Of a DNA stretch of 64,000 nucleotides, positions 28,471 through 57,947 are shown piece after piece (position 1 is the first letter of the stretch; each line of letters opens with the position of its first letter). The translations under genes and the position numbers were made by a program. This stretch comes from Halorhabdus sp. CBA1104 (GTDB lineage: Archaea; Halobacteriota; Halobacteria; Halobacteriales; Haloarculaceae): the NCBI RefSeq assembly GCF_009690625.1, contig NZ_CP033878.1, positions 1,550,001 through 1,614,000 on the forward strand. Direction: 5' to 3'. The notes below the pieces were generated by a model. The model was not told the origin of the DNA and did not search any database. It was given only the letters and a program-made list of their open reading frames with translations.

Positions 28471-29442
28471 TCAGTTCACGTCCCGGAGTTCAGCCGCGGC
28501 TTCCTCGGCGAGTTTGTTGTTGATGTACGCCCCACCACCGCGTTCGCTGCCGGCGGGATACTTGAGCTTGTGTTCAGTGCGGTAGGGTGGGTAAAACTCC
28601 ATGTGGAAGTGGGCGTACGCCGCGCCTTCGCCGGTCGTCGGCTGCTGGTGGGTCGCCATGATGTAGGGCATCTCGAAGCCGAACAGCGCGTCGTAGCTGA
28701 CCTGCAGTTCTTTCAGCACGGCCCCGAGGTCCCGTTCGTGCTGATCTGTGAAGTCAGCCATCGACGGGACGTGCTCGTTGGCGTAGACGTGGACTTCGTA
28801 GGTCCAGCGGGCGTGAAACGGCACGACAGCGGTAAAGGAGTCGTTCTGAGCGACGATGCGTCGCCCGTCCTCGCGTTCGGAGGCGATGACGTCACAGAAC
28901 AGACACCGGCCGGTCTCGTCGTGATGGTCGGCCGAGTTGTCCAGTTCCCGACGGACTTTCGGCGGGACGAACGGGTAGGCGTAGATCTGGCCGTGTGGAT
29001 GATGGAGCGTCACGCCGACTTCCTCGCCCTTGTTCTCGAAGATGTAGACGTACTCGTGGTCCTCGACAGCCCCGAGAGTCTCGTAGCGATCACGCCAGAG
29101 CTGGACCAGATTGACGAACCGCTCGGTGGGTTCGGTGGACAGCTGGCCGTCGTGCTCGGCGGTAAACAGGACGACCTCACACTGGCCGTTTGCGGGCTCG
29201 ACCGGCGCGAGATCGGTCCCCTCGACGGCGGGCTCGGGCGGGTCGGGCTGGAGGGACGGGAAGCCATTTTCGACGACAGCCATGTCGTACTCGGGCTCGG
29301 GGATGGCCGTCGGATACGCGGCGTCCTCGGCGGTCGGACAGAACGGACAGTAATTTTCCGGCGGTTTGAACGTCCGTTCCTGACGGTGAGTTGCAGTGAT
29401 GACCCACTCCTGTAAGGTCGGATCCCAACGGCGTTCGGTCAC
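28471..29442 (-). CDS. galT: Galactose-1-phosphate uridylyltransferase
   Basis: A 323-residue GalT, exchanging UDP between UDP-glucose and galactose 1-phosphate in the Leloir pathway. It shows the zinc-type CPFC pair at 32-35, the catalytic HHPHGQIYAYPFVPP with nucleophile in His148-Pro-His150, a second CLFC motif, and the C-terminal HFHMEFYPP. The GTG at 29442 is chosen because a GGAGG ribosome-binding sequence lies about 12 bases upstream and homologues begin near this point. It follows a 40-residue ORF by one base, implying translational coupling. With galE and galK nearby, the Leloir set is complete. Confidence 0.92.
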   Translation of the reverse strand: MTERRWDPTLQEWVITATHRQERTFKPPENYCPFCPTAEDAAYPTAIPEPEYDMAVVENGFPSLQPDPPEPAVEGTDLAPVEPANGQCEVVLFTAEHDGQLSTEPTERFVNLVQLWRDRYETLGAVEDHEYVYIFENKGEEVGVTLHHPHGQIYAYPFVPPKVRRELDNSADHHDETGRCLFCDVIASEREDGRRIVAQNDSFTAVVPFHARWTYEVHVYANEHVPSMADFTDQHERDLGAVLKELQVSYDALFGFEMPYIMATHQQPTTGEGAAYAHFHMEFYPPYRTEHKLKYPAGSERGGGAYINNKLAEEAAAELRDVN

Positions 29443-29443
29443 G

Positions 29444-29566
29444 TCAATCGTCCTCCTCGGATTCGGTCCCGGCCGTGGCCGACTCTGACCGAGTGGTGCC
29501 CTCGTCGTCGAACTCGTAGAACACGACGTACCGGTCGTTGTGGTTCGTGGTCTTGTGACTGTCCAT
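29444..29566 (-). CDS. 40-residue acidic small protein preceding galT
   Basis: The ATG at 29566 opens a 40-residue frame with a short ordered-looking start (NDRYVVFYEFDDEG) and a Ser/Thr/Glu/Asp tail. Its stop is one base before the galT GTG, and the galT ribosome-binding site lies inside its last codons. A TATA-like CTATTATG lies about 35 to 42 bases upstream. It may be a translated leader that couples galT translation, or a small protein with its own role. I know no family for it. Confidence 0.55.
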   Translation of the reverse strand: MDSHKTTNHNDRYVVFYEFDDEGTTRSESATAGTESEEDD

Positions 29567-29759
29567 TGGAATACGACTCCAATCTCTGTGTGAACCATCA
29601 TAATAGTACCGGACTGTTCGACGAAGACCACCACCGGTCCTGCCACCAGACCGGCGATGCGGTCGGTGCCTCGGCAGCCAACGCAAGTCGATGGGCTAGA
29701 TCACGACACTGGCAGACCGCACCGGAACTGTTTTGAGAGCTACCGTGTCATTGTCTGCT

Positions 29760-30707
29760 ATGGAATTGACCGATAAGCGGATCCTCGTCACTGGTGGTGC
29801 CGGGCTCATCGGGTCGGCGCTGGCCAGGCGACTCGTCACGGACAACGACGTCGTCGTCGTCGACGACCTCTCGAACGGGATCGAAGCATCAGTCCCGGAT
29901 GACGCAACGTTCATCGAGGGCGATCTCACCAATGAAGGGGTCGTCGCCAAAGCGATCGACGAACAGACAGACATCGTCTTCCACCTCGCGGCCGATAAAT
30001 ACGTCAACGCCGCGCAACCGCGCGAACAGTTCGAGACGAACGGCGAAATGACCTACAACCTGCTCGAACGCATGGCGGCAGTCGGTGTCGAGCATATTGC
30101 CTTTACCTCCTCGTCGACGGTCTACGGGGAAGCCCCCCGCCCGACCCCAGAGGATTACGCCCCACTCGAACCCATCAGTGAGTACGGCGCGGCGAAGTTG
30201 TCCGAAGAATCACTGCTGTCGGTGTACGCCCACAGCCACGACTTCACGGTCTGGAACTTCCGGTTTGCCAACATCGTCGGCCCACGATACGGCGCTGGCG
30301 TCGTCCCCGATTTCATCTACAAGCTCTCGGAGGACCCCGAGACGCTCACGATCCGGGGCAACGGCCGCCAAGAGAAGTCTTACATGACCCTCACAGAGTG
30401 CATCGACGCGATGTGCTACGTCGTCGAACACGCCGATCAGCCGGTCAACACCTACAACCTGGGCACGCGGACGACCACGTCGGTCAACCGCATCGCGGAC
30501 ATCGTGGCCGACGAGATGGGCGTCGACCCCGACTACGAGTACACCGGCGGCGACCGCGGCTGGGATGGCGACGTTCCGAAGATGCGCCTCTCGATCGAGA
30601 AACTCGCCGCACTCGGCTGGGAACCCTCGACTGCCAGCGATCAAGCCATCCGAAACGGCGTCCAAGAGATCCTCGACGGGGCCGAGAACGAGCCGCATTT
30701 GAGTTGA
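29760..30707 (+). CDS. galE: UDP-glucose 4-epimerase-like NAD-dependent epimerase
   Basis: A 315-residue extended SDR. The NAD loop TGGAGLIGS is at 11-19, the catalytic Ser in TSSSTVYGE (about 119) with Tyr142 and Lys146 in YGAAK, and the GNGRQEKSY substrate segment typical of GalE-like enzymes. It interconverts UDP-galactose and UDP-glucose or related sugars. Position between galT and galK argues for GalE, although nucleotide-sugar epimerases cannot be separated fully by motif. The ATG at 29760 gives the correct spacing to the NAD loop. Divergent from the galT operon and convergent with galK. Confidence 0.85.
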   Translation: MELTDKRILVTGGAGLIGSALARRLVTDNDVVVVDDLSNGIEASVPDDATFIEGDLTNEGVVAKAIDEQTDIVFHLAADKYVNAAQPREQFETNGEMTYNLLERMAAVGVEHIAFTSSSTVYGEAPRPTPEDYAPLEPISEYGAAKLSEESLLSVYAHSHDFTVWNFRFANIVGPRYGAGVVPDFIYKLSEDPETLTIRGNGRQEKSYMTLTECIDAMCYVVEHADQPVNTYNLGTRTTTSVNRIADIVADEMGVDPDYEYTGGDRGWDGDVPKMRLSIEKLAALGWEPSTASDQAIRNGVQEILDGAENEPHLS

Positions 30708-30755
30708 ACGGCGTCGATCCCACCGCTGGTCTCGACGACCCACGGCGTCTCTCCC

Positions 30756-31838
30756 CTACTCGACCTGCTCGAGTTGGACACCGGCCGAGGGCGTGACGAG
30801 ATAGGTCGCCGGATCGAGGTCGGGAAACTGATCACGATAGGCGGCCGCCAAGGAGTCTGCGAACGCGTCCGCTTGCTCGTCGTCGACGAGCGCGATGGCC
30901 GCCCCGCCCCAACCGGCACCAGTCAGCCGCGCGCCGTAAGCCCCTTCCTCGAGGGCCTGTTCGACGACGTAATCGAGTTCCGCACAGCTGGCTTCGTAGT
31001 GCTCGGCGATATCGCGATGAGCGTCGACCAGTAGCTCGCCGAACTGTTCGAGATCGCCGTCTGACAGTGCCGCCTTGGCCTGTGTGACACGGTTGTTCTC
31101 CCGGACGACAAAGCCCAGACGGTCGCGTTCCAGGGCCGACAGTTCGTCGAGGTCGTCCTCGCTGACGGCCTTCGAGGACTCGACACCCAGCTTCGCCAGT
31201 GCGCGCTCGACGGTTTCGCGACGCTGATTGTACGCCGAGTCGACCAACTCCCGGGAGACACCGGTATGGAAGACGACGACTCGGATCCCCTCCGGCATAG
31301 GCACTGGCTCGTATTCGAGGGTCTCGGTGTCGATCATGAGGGCGTGATCGTCCTGGCCCAGCGCCACAGCGAACTGATCCATGATGCCACACGACATGCC
31401 GACGTGCTCGTTTTCGACACGCTGGCTCAGCACCGCCATCCGCTCCCGAGAGAGACCAAGGTCGTAGGCCTCGTTCAGAAAACCCATGACTGCCAGTTCG
31501 AGACTCGCAGAAGAACTCAATCCCGAGCCAAGCGGCAACGTGGCGCTGAGTTCGCCGGTGAACCCACCCGGTTCGTAGCCCTCCGCCTGGAGAATCGCAT
31601 AGCAGCCTTTGACGTAATCGATCCAGTCGTCTTCGAGTTCGAGAGCATCTGTCTCGAACGTGTATGTCGTTTCGACGGCATCAGAAGCGACCTCGACTGC
31701 CGAACTCGGTGTCGCTTCGAGCTGTGTATGTAAGTCTGTCGCGAACGGCATCACGTAGCCGCCCGTGTAATCGGTATGCTCGCCGATCAAATTCACTCGT
31801 CCGGGTGACCGAACCCGGTAGGTTGGCTCGCTAGTCAT
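30756..31838 (-). CDS. galK: Galactokinase (GHMP kinase family)
   Basis: The 360-residue protein has the galactokinase signature PGRVNLIGEHTDYTGGYVMP (12-31), the ATP-binding GHMP loop LPLGSGLSSSASLELAVMG, and the C-terminal motif ARLTGAGWGGAAIALV. It phosphorylates galactose at C1, feeding galT. The ATG at 31838 sets the signature at the usual distance from the N-terminus; longer readings add a hydrophobic tail unlike the family. About 500 bases upstream are free of genes, so regulation from a separate promoter is likely. Confidence 0.93.
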   Translation of the reverse strand: MTSEPTYRVRSPGRVNLIGEHTDYTGGYVMPFATDLHTQLEATPSSAVEVASDAVETTYTFETDALELEDDWIDYVKGCYAILQAEGYEPGGFTGELSATLPLGSGLSSSASLELAVMGFLNEAYDLGLSRERMAVLSQRVENEHVGMSCGIMDQFAVALGQDDHALMIDTETLEYEPVPMPEGIRVVVFHTGVSRELVDSAYNQRRETVERALAKLGVESSKAVSEDDLDELSALERDRLGFVVRENNRVTQAKAALSDGDLEQFGELLVDAHRDIAEHYEASCAELDYVVEQALEEGAYGARLTGAGWGGAAIALVDDEQADAFADSLAAAYRDQFPDLDPATYLVTPSAGVQLEQVE

Positions 31839-32337
31839 GACGCTATCACTCTCGGAGATTCGGGCCAGTTGCAAAAGCCTGGCGGCGTCGTGGAGTGGGA
31901 CCACGGACCAGGAAAACAGCCACTCGCTGCGATAGAAACATAAAGAAAGAATAATACCTGTAAATAGTATGATTACGACAGTAACTCCAACACTATACAC
32001 GCGCTTGCTTGCATACAGCGCACTCACAACGCGCGAAACAGTACGAAATAGACAGCACTAACGTAGAACACAAATTACCCAAGATACGCAGATCTGAAAT
32101 CAAAAGTGGGAGAGATTTTTGTACTTTGGGTCTTGCGAGACGTTATGTCCGCAGAGATGGTTGATTTCTTTGTACTTTTCGAATACGACGATATCACATA
32201 AATATTCGTATATTTCTAAATATTCGTAGGATTTTATACTATACAGACTCGCTCGTCCGTCGTGCTTCCACCCCAGTCCGTCCGGGGCCAGCGGCCGTGC
32301 GTAGGCTTTTGGTCGAAACGGACTGACGGATACCCAG
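31839..32337. other. AT-rich intergenic region between galK and Mut7-C genes
   Basis: About 500 bases with no supported gene, clearly AT-richer than its surroundings from 31940 to 32240. It must hold the divergent promoters of galK and of the Mut7-C gene. TATA-like sequences include ATTTTATACTATA at about 32231-32244 on the plus strand. Two exact copies of AAATATTCGTA lie at 32200-32210 and 32218-32228. AT content and repeats suggest regulatory DNA or possibly acquired sequence. Confidence 0.55.
32200..32228. repeat. Two direct repeats of AAATATTCGTA with 18-bp period
   Basis: Exact 11-base copies start at 32200 and 32218, separated by TATTTCT. A related inverted element CGAATACG occurs at about 32180. 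An 18-base period is close to two helical turns, so proteins bound to both copies would sit on roughly the same DNA face. They lie just upstream of the likely TATA box of the Mut7-C gene. Confidence 0.5.
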
Positions 32338-32843: not shown

Positions 32844-33335
32844 ATGACCCTCTCCGAGGACGCTATCCAGCGGCTGGCCGACGTTGTGGCCCTCCAGCCG
32901 ACGAAAAATGCCGAACTACAGGATCGGTGGGATCTCGACAGCGGCAGCGAAGTCCACCGCGTGCTCGAAGACGAACTCGGTGACTACTACTACCGCGACG
33001 AGGATAGTCTCATCTGTGCGACGCCGGAGGCAGCCGATCTCGTCGCCGAAGAAGGATTGATCGAAGGCGGGAACGACGACCAGGTGCTGCACGTCCCCGA
33101 ACTGCAAGCCGCGATCGTCGACGTCATTGCCGGCCCCGACGAGGACACCCAAAGTGTCGTCAGCGTCCTCCAATCCCTCCGGGCAGCCGGTCGCGATCCA
33201 GCAGTCGAGGACGTCCGGAAGGCTCTCCGGAATCTAACGGACAAAGGGATCCTCGAGCGCGTGCGCACCACGGTTCCGACGTTCCGACTCGCCGTCGAAC
33301 GGGACGAACTCGTGGTCGACGTTCTCGAAGCGTAA
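32844..33335 (+). CDS. DUF5797-family haloarchaeal protein
   Basis: The 163-residue acidic protein matches the conserved haloarchaeal DUF5797 family: it starts with an ADVVALQPTKNAELQDRW segment and later has YYRDEDSLICATPEA. Its helix-rich N-terminus and the C-terminal VRKALRNLTDKGILERV segment resemble winged-helix folds, suggesting a DNA-binding role, but none is shown. It is transcribed after the Mut7-C gene and converges on the DUF5787 gene, whose stop lies three bases away. Confidence 0.75.
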   Translation: MTLSEDAIQRLADVVALQPTKNAELQDRWDLDSGSEVHRVLEDELGDYYYRDEDSLICATPEAADLVAEEGLIEGGNDDQVLHVPELQAAIVDVIAGPDEDTQSVVSVLQSLRAAGRDPAVEDVRKALRNLTDKGILERVRTTVPTFRLAVERDELVVDVLEA

Positions 33336-33337
33336 CG

Positions 33338-34384
33338 TTACTCCAGCCCGGGCCGGTGTCGACGGCGGCGACGGTCGAGCACCCGTTGGATCGCCGTCCC
33401 GGGACCGCCCGAAAGCGGCCAGTCTGCCGTGCGCCAAGCAGGCGGTTCCGGTTCGAACGCCGAGCAGGCACCGCGACACTCCGCGCTGGTCTGGGGGCGC
33501 TCTTTTGCCTGACAGACTGGGATCGGACCGGACTGGATCCAGTCGAGATCGAAGTACCGACAGTCCGGGCGCATCGTCTCGACGTAAGCCCGCCACCCGC
33601 GCTCGTAGGCCCGCTCGGCAATCTCGACGCGCTTTTGACCGTTCCAGTCCGGGTCGACGTACTCGAAGCGAGCGGCCGAGGCGTCCCGCTCGCCACCATC
33701 TGGTCGGTCGAGAATGCGCGTTCCCGGGCTCTGGGGGTCCAGCGAACGGGGGTGCCAGGCGACATCGGCATCACCAGCCACTGGATCGACAACCAAAACT
33801 CCGGCCTCGACCGGGAAATCTTCGAGGAGTGCTGGCTCGACTCGTTGGCCAGTCGCCGCTGTCCCGACCCACACTTCGTCGGCCAGCCCCATAGCCACGT
33901 CTCGCTGGAGTTGCGGAGCGAGATCGCGGGCCGCGCTGGCGTCCAGATCCGGTTTGTTCTCGATAGCGACGATGCGATCGACCCAATCCGGGTAGACCGC
34001 CTGGCGACGGATCTCGATGCGCCCCTCGCGCTTTCGTGTGTCCAGAATGTCGCGGTCGGCTGCCCGGTGGATCGCCTCCCGGACGTACCGCCAGGGATAG
34101 CCTGGGTCCGGGAGTGCCTCGCGGTAATACGTCCACTCGGCAGGGGCGTGTGGAACGACGTCAAGCAAATCCGAATCGAGGGCACGCTCGCCAAAGTGGG
34201 CGCGCTGGCGGAGGCCGTCCGGGTCGCACTCGATCACGATCGTGTCCCAGCGACGGCGCTTCGTGCCGAGTTGGCGGGCGACGAGTATCGGTCGCTTTCG
34301 GTCGGCCTCGGGCGGCCAGGCACGCTCGGCCCACTGACAGACCCGGAGTTCGAAGTCGAACTCAGCCCCGTAGCCCAGAGTCAC
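33338..34384 (-). CDS. DUF5787 protein with PD-(D/E)XK nuclease-like motif and cysteine cluster
   Basis: A 348-residue protein of the uncharacterised haloarchaeal DUF5787 family (LVARQLGTKRRRWDTIVIE; WTYYREALPDPGYPWRYVRE). Two features stand out. Residues 132-144 read PDWVDRIVAIENK, fitting PD-x8-E-x-K of PD-(D/E)XK nucleases, and a glutamine-rich helix LAPQLQRDVA follows as in RecB-like members. Four cysteines near the C-terminus (275, 291, 303, 307) could bind a metal or Fe-S cluster, as in Cas4/AddB nucleases. Nuclease activity is inference. The start is a GTG. It lies 65 bases from the Nudix gene on the same strand. Confidence 0.75.
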   Translation of the reverse strand: MTLGYGAEFDFELRVCQWAERAWPPEADRKRPILVARQLGTKRRRWDTIVIECDPDGLRQRAHFGERALDSDLLDVVPHAPAEWTYYREALPDPGYPWRYVREAIHRAADRDILDTRKREGRIEIRRQAVYPDWVDRIVAIENKPDLDASAARDLAPQLQRDVAMGLADEVWVGTAATGQRVEPALLEDFPVEAGVLVVDPVAGDADVAWHPRSLDPQSPGTRILDRPDGGERDASAARFEYVDPDWNGQKRVEIAERAYERGWRAYVETMRPDCRYFDLDWIQSGPIPVCQAKERPQTSAECRGACSAFEPEPPAWRTADWPLSGGPGTAIQRVLDRRRRRHRPGLE

Positions 34385-34449
34385 GCTCGAAGAGACGACA
34401 CTCGGTCTGGAAGGCGTTTCGATCCGCTACCTCCCGGCAGCCGATCGGC

Positions 34450-34872
34450 TCAGAACCCTTTCTCGTCCAGAAAGTCGTGTGCCACCTCGAAGATTTCCCG
34501 CGGTCCATCCTGGGTGATGGTGTTTTTGGCCTGTTCGTAATCACGCCACTGGTGGTCGTGATGCTCGGTCGATAGCTCTGCACTTGCTTCGAACGATTGG
34601 GCGACGAACAGGTGGACGGTTTTGTGGATCGTCTCACCGTTCGCCTCGAAGACGTAGTCGTAGTCTTTACGGAAGCCGTCGATGAGCCGGAAATCTTCGA
34701 TTCCGGCTTCCTCTTTCACTTCGCGGATGGCCGTCTGCTGGAGTTCCTCCTCGCCCTCGACGCCCCCTTTGGGGAACTCCCAGTCCCCCGGTCGGCTCTT
34801 GAGCAGCAGGTACTCACGCTGGCCACGCGTATCGCGAAAGAGGATGGCTCCCGCGCTCGTGGCCTCGATCAT
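34450..34872 (-). CDS. Nudix hydrolase, diadenosine tetraphosphatase-like
   Basis: The 140-residue protein has the Nudix box GGVEGEEELQQTAIREVKEE, whose REVKEE glutamates bind magnesium. The N-terminus SAGAILFRDTRGQREYLLL and the tail WRDYEQAKNTI are typical of bis(5'-nucleosyl)-tetraphosphatases, which clear Ap4A and related dinucleotides. Exact substrate is uncertain because Nudix specificity is hard to read. The ATG at 34872 has a TATA-like AATTATCG next to it; the transcript may be leaderless. Confidence 0.88.
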   Translation of the reverse strand: MIEATSAGAILFRDTRGQREYLLLKSRPGDWEFPKGGVEGEEELQQTAIREVKEEAGIEDFRLIDGFRKDYDYVFEANGETIHKTVHLFVAQSFEASAELSTEHHDHQWRDYEQAKNTITQDGPREIFEVAHDFLDEKGF

Positions 34873-56966: not shown

Positions 56967-57947
56967 TCACGCCCAGTCGTCCAGTCCCGTCTGGACGAGC
57001 GAGGACTCGATGCGCTCGAACCCGCGTTCGACCTCGCTTGCCTCGACCTCCCACTCGTCGGTGACGAACGCCCAGGCGGCGTCGAGGTCCGGTTCGAGGT
57101 CCGTCTCGAAAGCATAGGCGTCGGTGACGGCAGGATCGAGAAAGAGGTCGCGGATCCGATCGGCGTTCTCGACGTAGACATCCTCGCTCTCGCTGACGCC
57201 CCAGAGGTCGCCGTGCTCGCGGACGGCCTCGACAGCAGTCTTGGGGCCGTACCCGTGGACGCCCTCGTTGAAGTCCGTCCCACAGAGGAGAGCAACGTCG
57301 ACCAGTTGCTCCCAAGAGAGGTCGTGTTCCTCCAAGGTGGTCTGAAAGTCCATCAGTTCGGGAGCGCCCGAACTCGTGAGTTGCCGAAGGGTCCGGGGTG
57401 CGCCAAAGAGGAGGGCGTCGTAGTCCTCGGTGCCGACGTAATCGACGTCGCCGTTGCGGGCCATGTGAGCAGCCTGTCCCTCGCCCTCCGCCGGCGCATC
57501 GACGACAGGCACGTCGAGCAACTCAAGAAGATCCCGTGTCGTCTCCAGGATGACATCGGTGAGGCGCTGGGTTCTGGACTCTAAGCGTGCGACCCTGACC
57601 GCATCACCTTCCTGGCGGGCCGCTTCGAGATCTTCTTCGTACTGTTGGCGCTGCTCGCGCCGGCGCTGTACCTCGTCGTCTTTCAGATCCGTGACGGCAC
57701 CGTCGAACACCATCACGGGCGTGACTTCGTGCTCGAAGAACTTCGGCAATCCCTGGACGACGCCGACGAGGTTGGCGACTTCTTTGCCCTCGGTCGTCGT
57801 GTACACGTCGTCGTTCGTCCACTTGACCGTCGTCGTGAGGTAGCGATACAGCCAGTTGTGGGCGTCGACGGCGACGATCGAGCCAGCCAACTCCTCGAAA
57901 GCGATCGATTCGATGGCCGCGATGTCCCGGAGATCGGCGTTTCCCAT
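56967..57947 (-). CDS. fen1: Flap endonuclease 1
   Basis: A 326-residue structure-specific nuclease that removes 5' flaps during replication and repair. Motifs: [37 protein letters not shown] with catalytic Glu residues, [14 protein letters not shown] with catalytic Asp, and [17 protein letters not shown]. The C-terminus QTGLDDWA (319-326) is a PCNA-interaction box with Trp in place of the aromatic Phe pair. The ATG at 57947 starts MGNADLRDI, as in homologues. Confidence 0.95.

Follow-up and report, generated by a model that had tools for sequence, protein, structure and literature searches.

DUF5787, a predicted PD-(D/E)XK nuclease family that occurs as two paralogues in haloarchaea

The gene and its family

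The window analysed here, a stretch of 64,000 nucleotides from Halorhabdus sp. CBA1104, contains a gene whose product is known only as a domain of unknown function, DUF5787, and the question raised by the locus is what this protein does, in particular whether it is a nuclease and on which nucleic acid it would act. Our best explanation, to which we give a probability of roughly 0.6, is that DUF5787 constitutes a haloarchaea-specific family of metal-dependent PD-(D/E)XK nucleases acting on DNA in replication or repair. New here are a corrected active site, a winged-helix insert, a near-universal state of two paralogues (A, the window gene, and B) and a PIP-box tail on paralogue B, and it is these four features taken together that point to DNA replication or repair. 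The reading frame of the first-pass annotation is confirmed, and the residue numbers given there for P132, D133, E142, K144, C275, C291, C303 and C307 are correct for paralogue A. The genes of the locus are:

33338..34384, minus strand: DUF5787 paralogue A, the window gene, 348 aa with a GTG start; predicted PD-(D/E)XK nuclease
34450..34872, minus strand: NUDIX hydrolase gene, 65 bases upstream of the DUF5787 gene and on the same strand; kept in 50 of 64 loci
32844..33335, plus strand: DUF5797 gene, convergent with the DUF5787 gene in 56 of 64 related loci; its product may be a winged-helix protein

The protein of paralogue A belongs to the Pfam family DUF5787 (PF19100) with an E-value of 5e-119 and a score of 397 bits (Pfam cut-off 25), and is 86% identical to the H. 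salina protein. No other Pfam family matches it up to an E-value of 10, searches of NCBIfam, PHROGs and PADLOC gave nothing besides DUF5787, and sequence searches of the PDB gave chance matches only, none of them relevant. No paper found in our literature search names DUF5787, and like the first-pass annotation we infer an undescribed archaeal nuclease.

Several minor features surround the gene. DUF5797 is another uncharacterised family, with weak matches of a winged-helix-like kind, and some loci have a membrane-protein gene between the NUDIX and DUF5787 genes. galT-like, galE-like and galK-like genes are found together nearby, at 28471-32027 in the window. An antisense open frame of 394 aa (33356-34540, plus strand) overlaps nearly the whole DUF5787 gene and has a codon-position G+C like that of the DUF5787 gene, but is without support as a gene.

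Predicted fold and active site

The AlphaFold model of paralogue A, built from 65 sequences, has a mean pLDDT of 85.7 and a pTM of 0.85, with the core elements mostly at pLDDT 85-98. The predicted order is helix 8-22, strands 33-41 and 44-53, a winged-helix domain, strand 135-143, helix 149-165 and strand 170-176, i.e. the alphaA-beta-beta-beta-alphaB-beta topology of the PD-(D/E)XK core. The first-pass annotation had named this fold and suggested a structure prediction as one way to check it; the predicted core, the fold matches and the invariant E, D, E-x-K and Q residues described below all support the assignment. With VIA, the best core match is PDB 3dnx (SPO1766), with a Z-score of 11.7 over 144 of 146 residues, which we take to be a member of the MmcB-like family (PF06319), followed by the type IIS endonuclease PaqCI (Z 10.1), XisH (9.1 and 8.7) and AF2093 (8.0), and at a lower level by Card1 (7.2), BsaWI (7.1) and SfsA (6.9). 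The top matches in BFVD are phage MmcB-family nucleases, and Foldseek gave no match in the PDB below an E-value of 0.039, which is not significant; the structural case is therefore made from the VIA Z-scores, the topology and the conservation of the motifs.

With the MmcB-like proteins DUF5787 has in common the order of the Asp strand, the E-x-K strand and then an 'IP..aG' strand. Caulobacter MmcB, a PD-(D/E)XK endonuclease under SOS control, gives protection against mitomycin C (PMC9578287). In the MmcB sequences examined, however, a short hairpin connects the Asp strand to the E-x-K strand and the winged-helix insert is absent, as is the C-terminal four-cysteine module of DUF5787. Membership by profile was tried with hhalign against 6 and then 86 MmcB-like sequences, with the winged-helix insert kept or removed, and was rejected, the comparison with 86 sequences giving a P of about 0.04-0.06 and a probability of about 1%, which is not significant. 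Since neither this profile nor Foldseek gave a significant match, the claim is restricted to a shared fold and active-site order, and does not extend to membership of MmcB. XisH (2okf, 2inb) and PaqCI (8em1) likewise share the PD-(D/E)XK core (VIA, Z 8.7-10.1), but their aligned identity is 7-12% and their accessory parts are different.

The positions that bear on the active site, and the insert between them, are:

34349..34351, minus strand: Glu12 on alphaA, invariant; probably the first of the acidic active-site residues
34244..34246, minus strand: Asp47, in strand 44-53; from conservation and model topology the probable catalytic residue, corresponding to the 'D' of PD-(D/E)XK
33998..34186, minus strand: winged-helix insert, residues about 67-129, from the AlphaFold model and VIA matches
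33986..33988, minus strand: Asp133, variable, at the beginning of the strand that carries E142
33953..33961, minus strand: Glu142-Asn143-Lys144, the invariant E-x-K motif
33911..33913, minus strand: Gln158 on alphaB, invariant

Conservation was followed in 111 sequences of the window type (paralogue A) and 38 sequences of paralogue B from 38 loci, about 149 in total; the set includes near-copies, and a subset thinned to less than 85% identity gives the same picture. E142, K144 and Q158 occur without exception in both sets (111/111 and 38/38), as the first-pass annotation had expected for Glu142 and Lys144, and D47 is present in 110 of the A sequences, with a gap in the remaining one, and in 38/38 of paralogue B. 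The complete set of residues invariant in both paralogues, which are otherwise only about 34-40% identical, comprises E8, E12, C16, E20, R37, Q38, D47 (with the one gap), E142, N143, K144, Q158, D162 and D169 together with the four C-terminal cysteines, and E8, E12, C16 and E20 occupy one face of the first helix, alphaA. In the model D47 is in the second core strand, E142 ends the third, K144 comes just after it and Q158 is on the second core helix, and these placements are what the PD-(D/E)XK fold requires. DUF5787 thus carries the signature of the superfamily, with D47 as the conserved acidic residue of the second strand and E142 and K144 as the E-x-K of the third.

A different active site had been proposed earlier, with the motif PD-x8-E-x-K followed by a Gln-containing helix and with Asp133 as the catalytic and invariant aspartate. 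The E-x-K part of this motif stands, and so does the helix, as the invariant Q158 is on helix 149-165, but the Asp part has to be given up. Position 133 is occupied by 88 D, 16 E, 3 A, 2 N and 1 G among the 111 sequences of paralogue A, and by 29 D, 8 E and 1 A among the 38 of paralogue B. In the model D133 is located just before strand 135-143, nine residues upstream of E142 in the same extended run, and from this extended geometry it should not be able to share a metal site with E142. D133 was rejected as the catalytic Asp for both reasons, being variable and at the wrong position on the strand, one whole strand away from the active site, and the catalytic Asp is likely to be D47 instead. 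In a site of this kind the metal ion would be bound by Glu12 (or Glu8), Asp47 and Glu142, with Lys144 activating the water and Gln158 helping to place the substrate.

These residues could also have been kept for folding or for binding of a metal in a protein that has the PD-(D/E)XK fold but is no nuclease, for instance a DNA-binding structural factor at the clamp. Some PD-(D/E)XK domains have lost activity, and that of DUF5787 is a predicted one in a family mentioned nowhere in the literature that was found. Inactive copies, however, usually lose such residues, while E12, D47, E142, K144 and Q158 are invariant in both paralogues in about 149 sequences, as catalysis predicts, and other positions of DUF5787 drift; a protein of this kind is therefore considered unlikely.

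The insert between the second and third core strands, i.e. between the strands of Asp47 and Glu142, has the form of a winged-helix domain. In this region the model contains helices 55-64, 71-79 and 98-110 and strands 114-119 and 122-127, and residues about 67-129 match Zur, MarR, BlaI, the Z-alpha domain of ADAR and others with Z-scores of about 7-8 over about 60 residues (VIA). Located between the catalytic strands, the winged helix would grip double-stranded DNA beside the cut.

The cysteines and the comparison with Cas4 and AddB

34337..34339, minus strand: Cys16 on alphaA, a fifth invariant Cys (111/111 in paralogue A and 38/38 in paralogue B)
33464..33562, minus strand: the cluster C275, C291, C303 and C307 (C-x15-C-x11-C-x3-C), conserved; predicted metal or Fe-S site

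The conservation that had been expected of the four C-terminal cysteines is found in both paralogues, with C275 and C307 present in 111/111 and C291 and C303 in 110/111 sequences of paralogue A (one gap), and all four in 38/38 of paralogue B. In the AlphaFold model they flank a predicted hairpin, residues 278-291; the C-terminal domain modelled alone was poor (pLDDT 68, pTM 0.49). The protein of paralogue A has just 6 cysteines in 348 residues, and since four are invariant in proteins otherwise nearly free of Cys, the four are most naturally read as a site that would hold a structural metal or an Fe-S cluster.

The cysteines had earlier been compared to the ligands of Cas4 and AddB, and this comparison is not supported. 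In these enzymes one ligand is N-terminal and three are C-terminal (PMC3466216), whereas DUF5787 has four C-terminal cysteines with another spacing and in addition C16, and this fifth invariant Cys makes the pattern another than that of Cas4 and AddB. Membership of Cas4/AddB was therefore rejected. What DUF5787 has in common with Cas4, AddB and DUF3799 is a PD-(D/E)XK core with Cys at both ends of the domain, and a four-Cys metal or Fe-S site is possible, but there is no detectable sequence similarity to Cas4/AddB in Pfam. A nuclease of the RecB/Cas4/AddB type, with an Fe-S 'staple' and D133 as the catalytic residue, would account for the invariant cysteines that bracket the nuclease domain, with C16 on one side and four at the C-terminus on the other, and for E-x-K and Q in RecB-like order. 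The variation of D133 and the different Cys pattern nevertheless make it highly improbable, the least probable of the alternatives, and the leading structural matches are MmcB-like and of the XisH type, not Cas4; the structures of Cas4 and AddB are not among the VIA matches, an absence that proves and excludes nothing.

Two paralogues and the C-terminal tail of paralogue B

DUF5787 (PF19100) is present in 242 of 243 near-complete haloarchaeal genomes, with at least two matches in 241 of them, and Haloferax volcanii, taken as a control, carries it. In the rest of the phylum about 310 genomes gave no match apart from a weak one (E 2.9e-4, in genome G228), which was judged spurious because it covers only 71 positions and no plausible DUF5787 reading frame is present there. 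In a tree of 75 sequences the paralogues A and B form two clades with full support (100/100), indicating one old duplication after which both copies have been kept together in nearly every haloarchaeon. Paralogue B of the Halorhabdus genome (G000:C1 531846-532835; L111 1387-2379, minus strand) has all the active-site and Cys positions of paralogue A.

Nine genomes from three families of the order, among them families f38 and f41, have no match to paralogue B, and genome G134 (98% complete) has no match to the DUF5787 profile either. The lineages without paralogue B perhaps branched early and never had it.

The distribution bears on the idea that DUF5787 is a defence nuclease, restriction-like or abortive. 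Many combinations of a winged helix with PD-(D/E)XK are defence nucleases, the restriction enzymes PaqCI and BsaWI and also Card1 are among the fold matches, and paralogue B has a weak PADLOC match (PDLC02989 'cll', E 2.5e-4) over residues 132-194, the segment with E-x-K. Defence genes are usually patchy, however, whereas DUF5787 is an old pair in essentially every haloarchaeon with a clean two-clade tree and syntenic neighbours; a search for viral copies found none, and neither PADLOC nor PHROGs gave a match to paralogue A. A role in defence is thus very unlikely.

The C-terminal ends of the paralogues are different. Paralogue B of the Halorhabdus genome ends with RRQAGLDRYE, and in 20/20 genomes its C-terminus is Q[ASTV]GLD[RKQ][FYW] plus 0 to 2 residues. 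Paralogue A has no C-terminal PIP box; its tail is ..LDRRRRRHRPGLE, with the family consensus RRRRxRPG. When the tails of 3083 open reading frames of at least 150 aa were surveyed in 101 pieces of haloarchaeal DNA, the pattern Q.GL.[RKDE][FYW] was found within the last 14 residues in 19 of them, namely 18 copies of paralogue B and the FEN1/XPG-family nuclease of the window (56967-57947, minus strand), which has the tail VQTGLDDWA. The RNase HII of this genome ends with DDQAALDDF and NreA with LQAQLSDF, and the tail of paralogue B fits the QxxLxx[FYW] form of these clamp clients of the same organisms. The Haloferax PIP box has been described as QxxLxxFx (PMC7776575), and FEN1, RNase HII and NreA are established clients of PCNA (PMC7776575, PMC4929162). 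With a tail of the form common to these three clients, paralogue B very probably binds the sliding clamp (PCNA), which would deliver it to DNA, while paralogue A, lacking a PIP box, might work alone or as the partner of B. The tail of RNase HII (L273 1392-2196, minus strand; G000) is a doubled one, with the PIP-box-like sequences ADQAALDDF...DDQAALDDF.

The closest functional analogue of paralogue B is NucS/EndoMS, an archaeal PD-(D/E)XK nuclease of the RecB family that has a C-terminal PIP box and binds PCNA (PMC4929162). NucS has an N-terminal domain that binds single-stranded DNA, and DUF5787 has the winged-helix insert and the four cysteines; neither paralogue gives a match to Pfam NucS_C (PF01939), and NucS is a separate gene in the Halorhabdus genome. 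Among the clients of PCNA, a review treats NucS, NreA/NreB and TIP as non-core (PMC4929162).

The PIP box of paralogue B also makes DNA the likelier substrate, and the earlier wording 'DNA or RNA' can be narrowed to that extent. A PD-(D/E)XK nuclease acting on RNA, for example in the processing of rRNA or tRNA, would fit with the near-universal presence and vertical inheritance in haloarchaea and with some of the neighbours, since paralogue B adjoins a divergent group of translation and transcription genes, for eIF2-gamma, a PIN-domain protein, RpoE' and Spt4, in 17 of 20 genomes (names from inspection of the sequences), and a gene with a Mut7-C RNase domain is found near paralogue A. Neither neighbourhood indicates a function, or points to repair. 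The PIP tail, on the other hand, has the form found in the DNA enzymes FEN1, RNase HII and NreA, the top fold matches are to enzymes that act on DNA or to proteins of DNA repair, and the winged-helix insert suits duplex DNA, so that there is only a small chance of an RNA substrate, about as small as that of a protein with no nuclease activity.

For a nuclease that acts on DNA, the analysis shows the family, its conservation, the paralogy, a predicted fold and a PIP-like tail of the form found in FEN1, RNase HII and NreA, and we infer catalysis, the DNA substrate, the type of metal, the binding to the clamp and the pairing of A with B, the ground for the last being that the two occur together in practically every genome. 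Paralogues A and B might be two subunits, or partners with a division of labour, of an undescribed genome-maintenance nuclease of haloarchaea with a winged-helix insert and a Cys-bound metal or Fe-S centre, and PCNA, binding the tail of B, would bring it to sites of replication or repair; this more specific proposal is tentative, and we put it below even odds. If it is true, the DUF5787 pair would be a core factor of genome maintenance that its label as a 'domain of unknown function' has kept from notice. For archaeal DNA repair Haloferax volcanii is a main genetic model, and as it carries DUF5787 and knockouts are possible, the idea is directly testable.

In four genomes (G260, G196, G265 and G438) the match to paralogue B falls into two parts at about residue 190-196 with no intervening stop codon, which would fit a variable insert behind the core.
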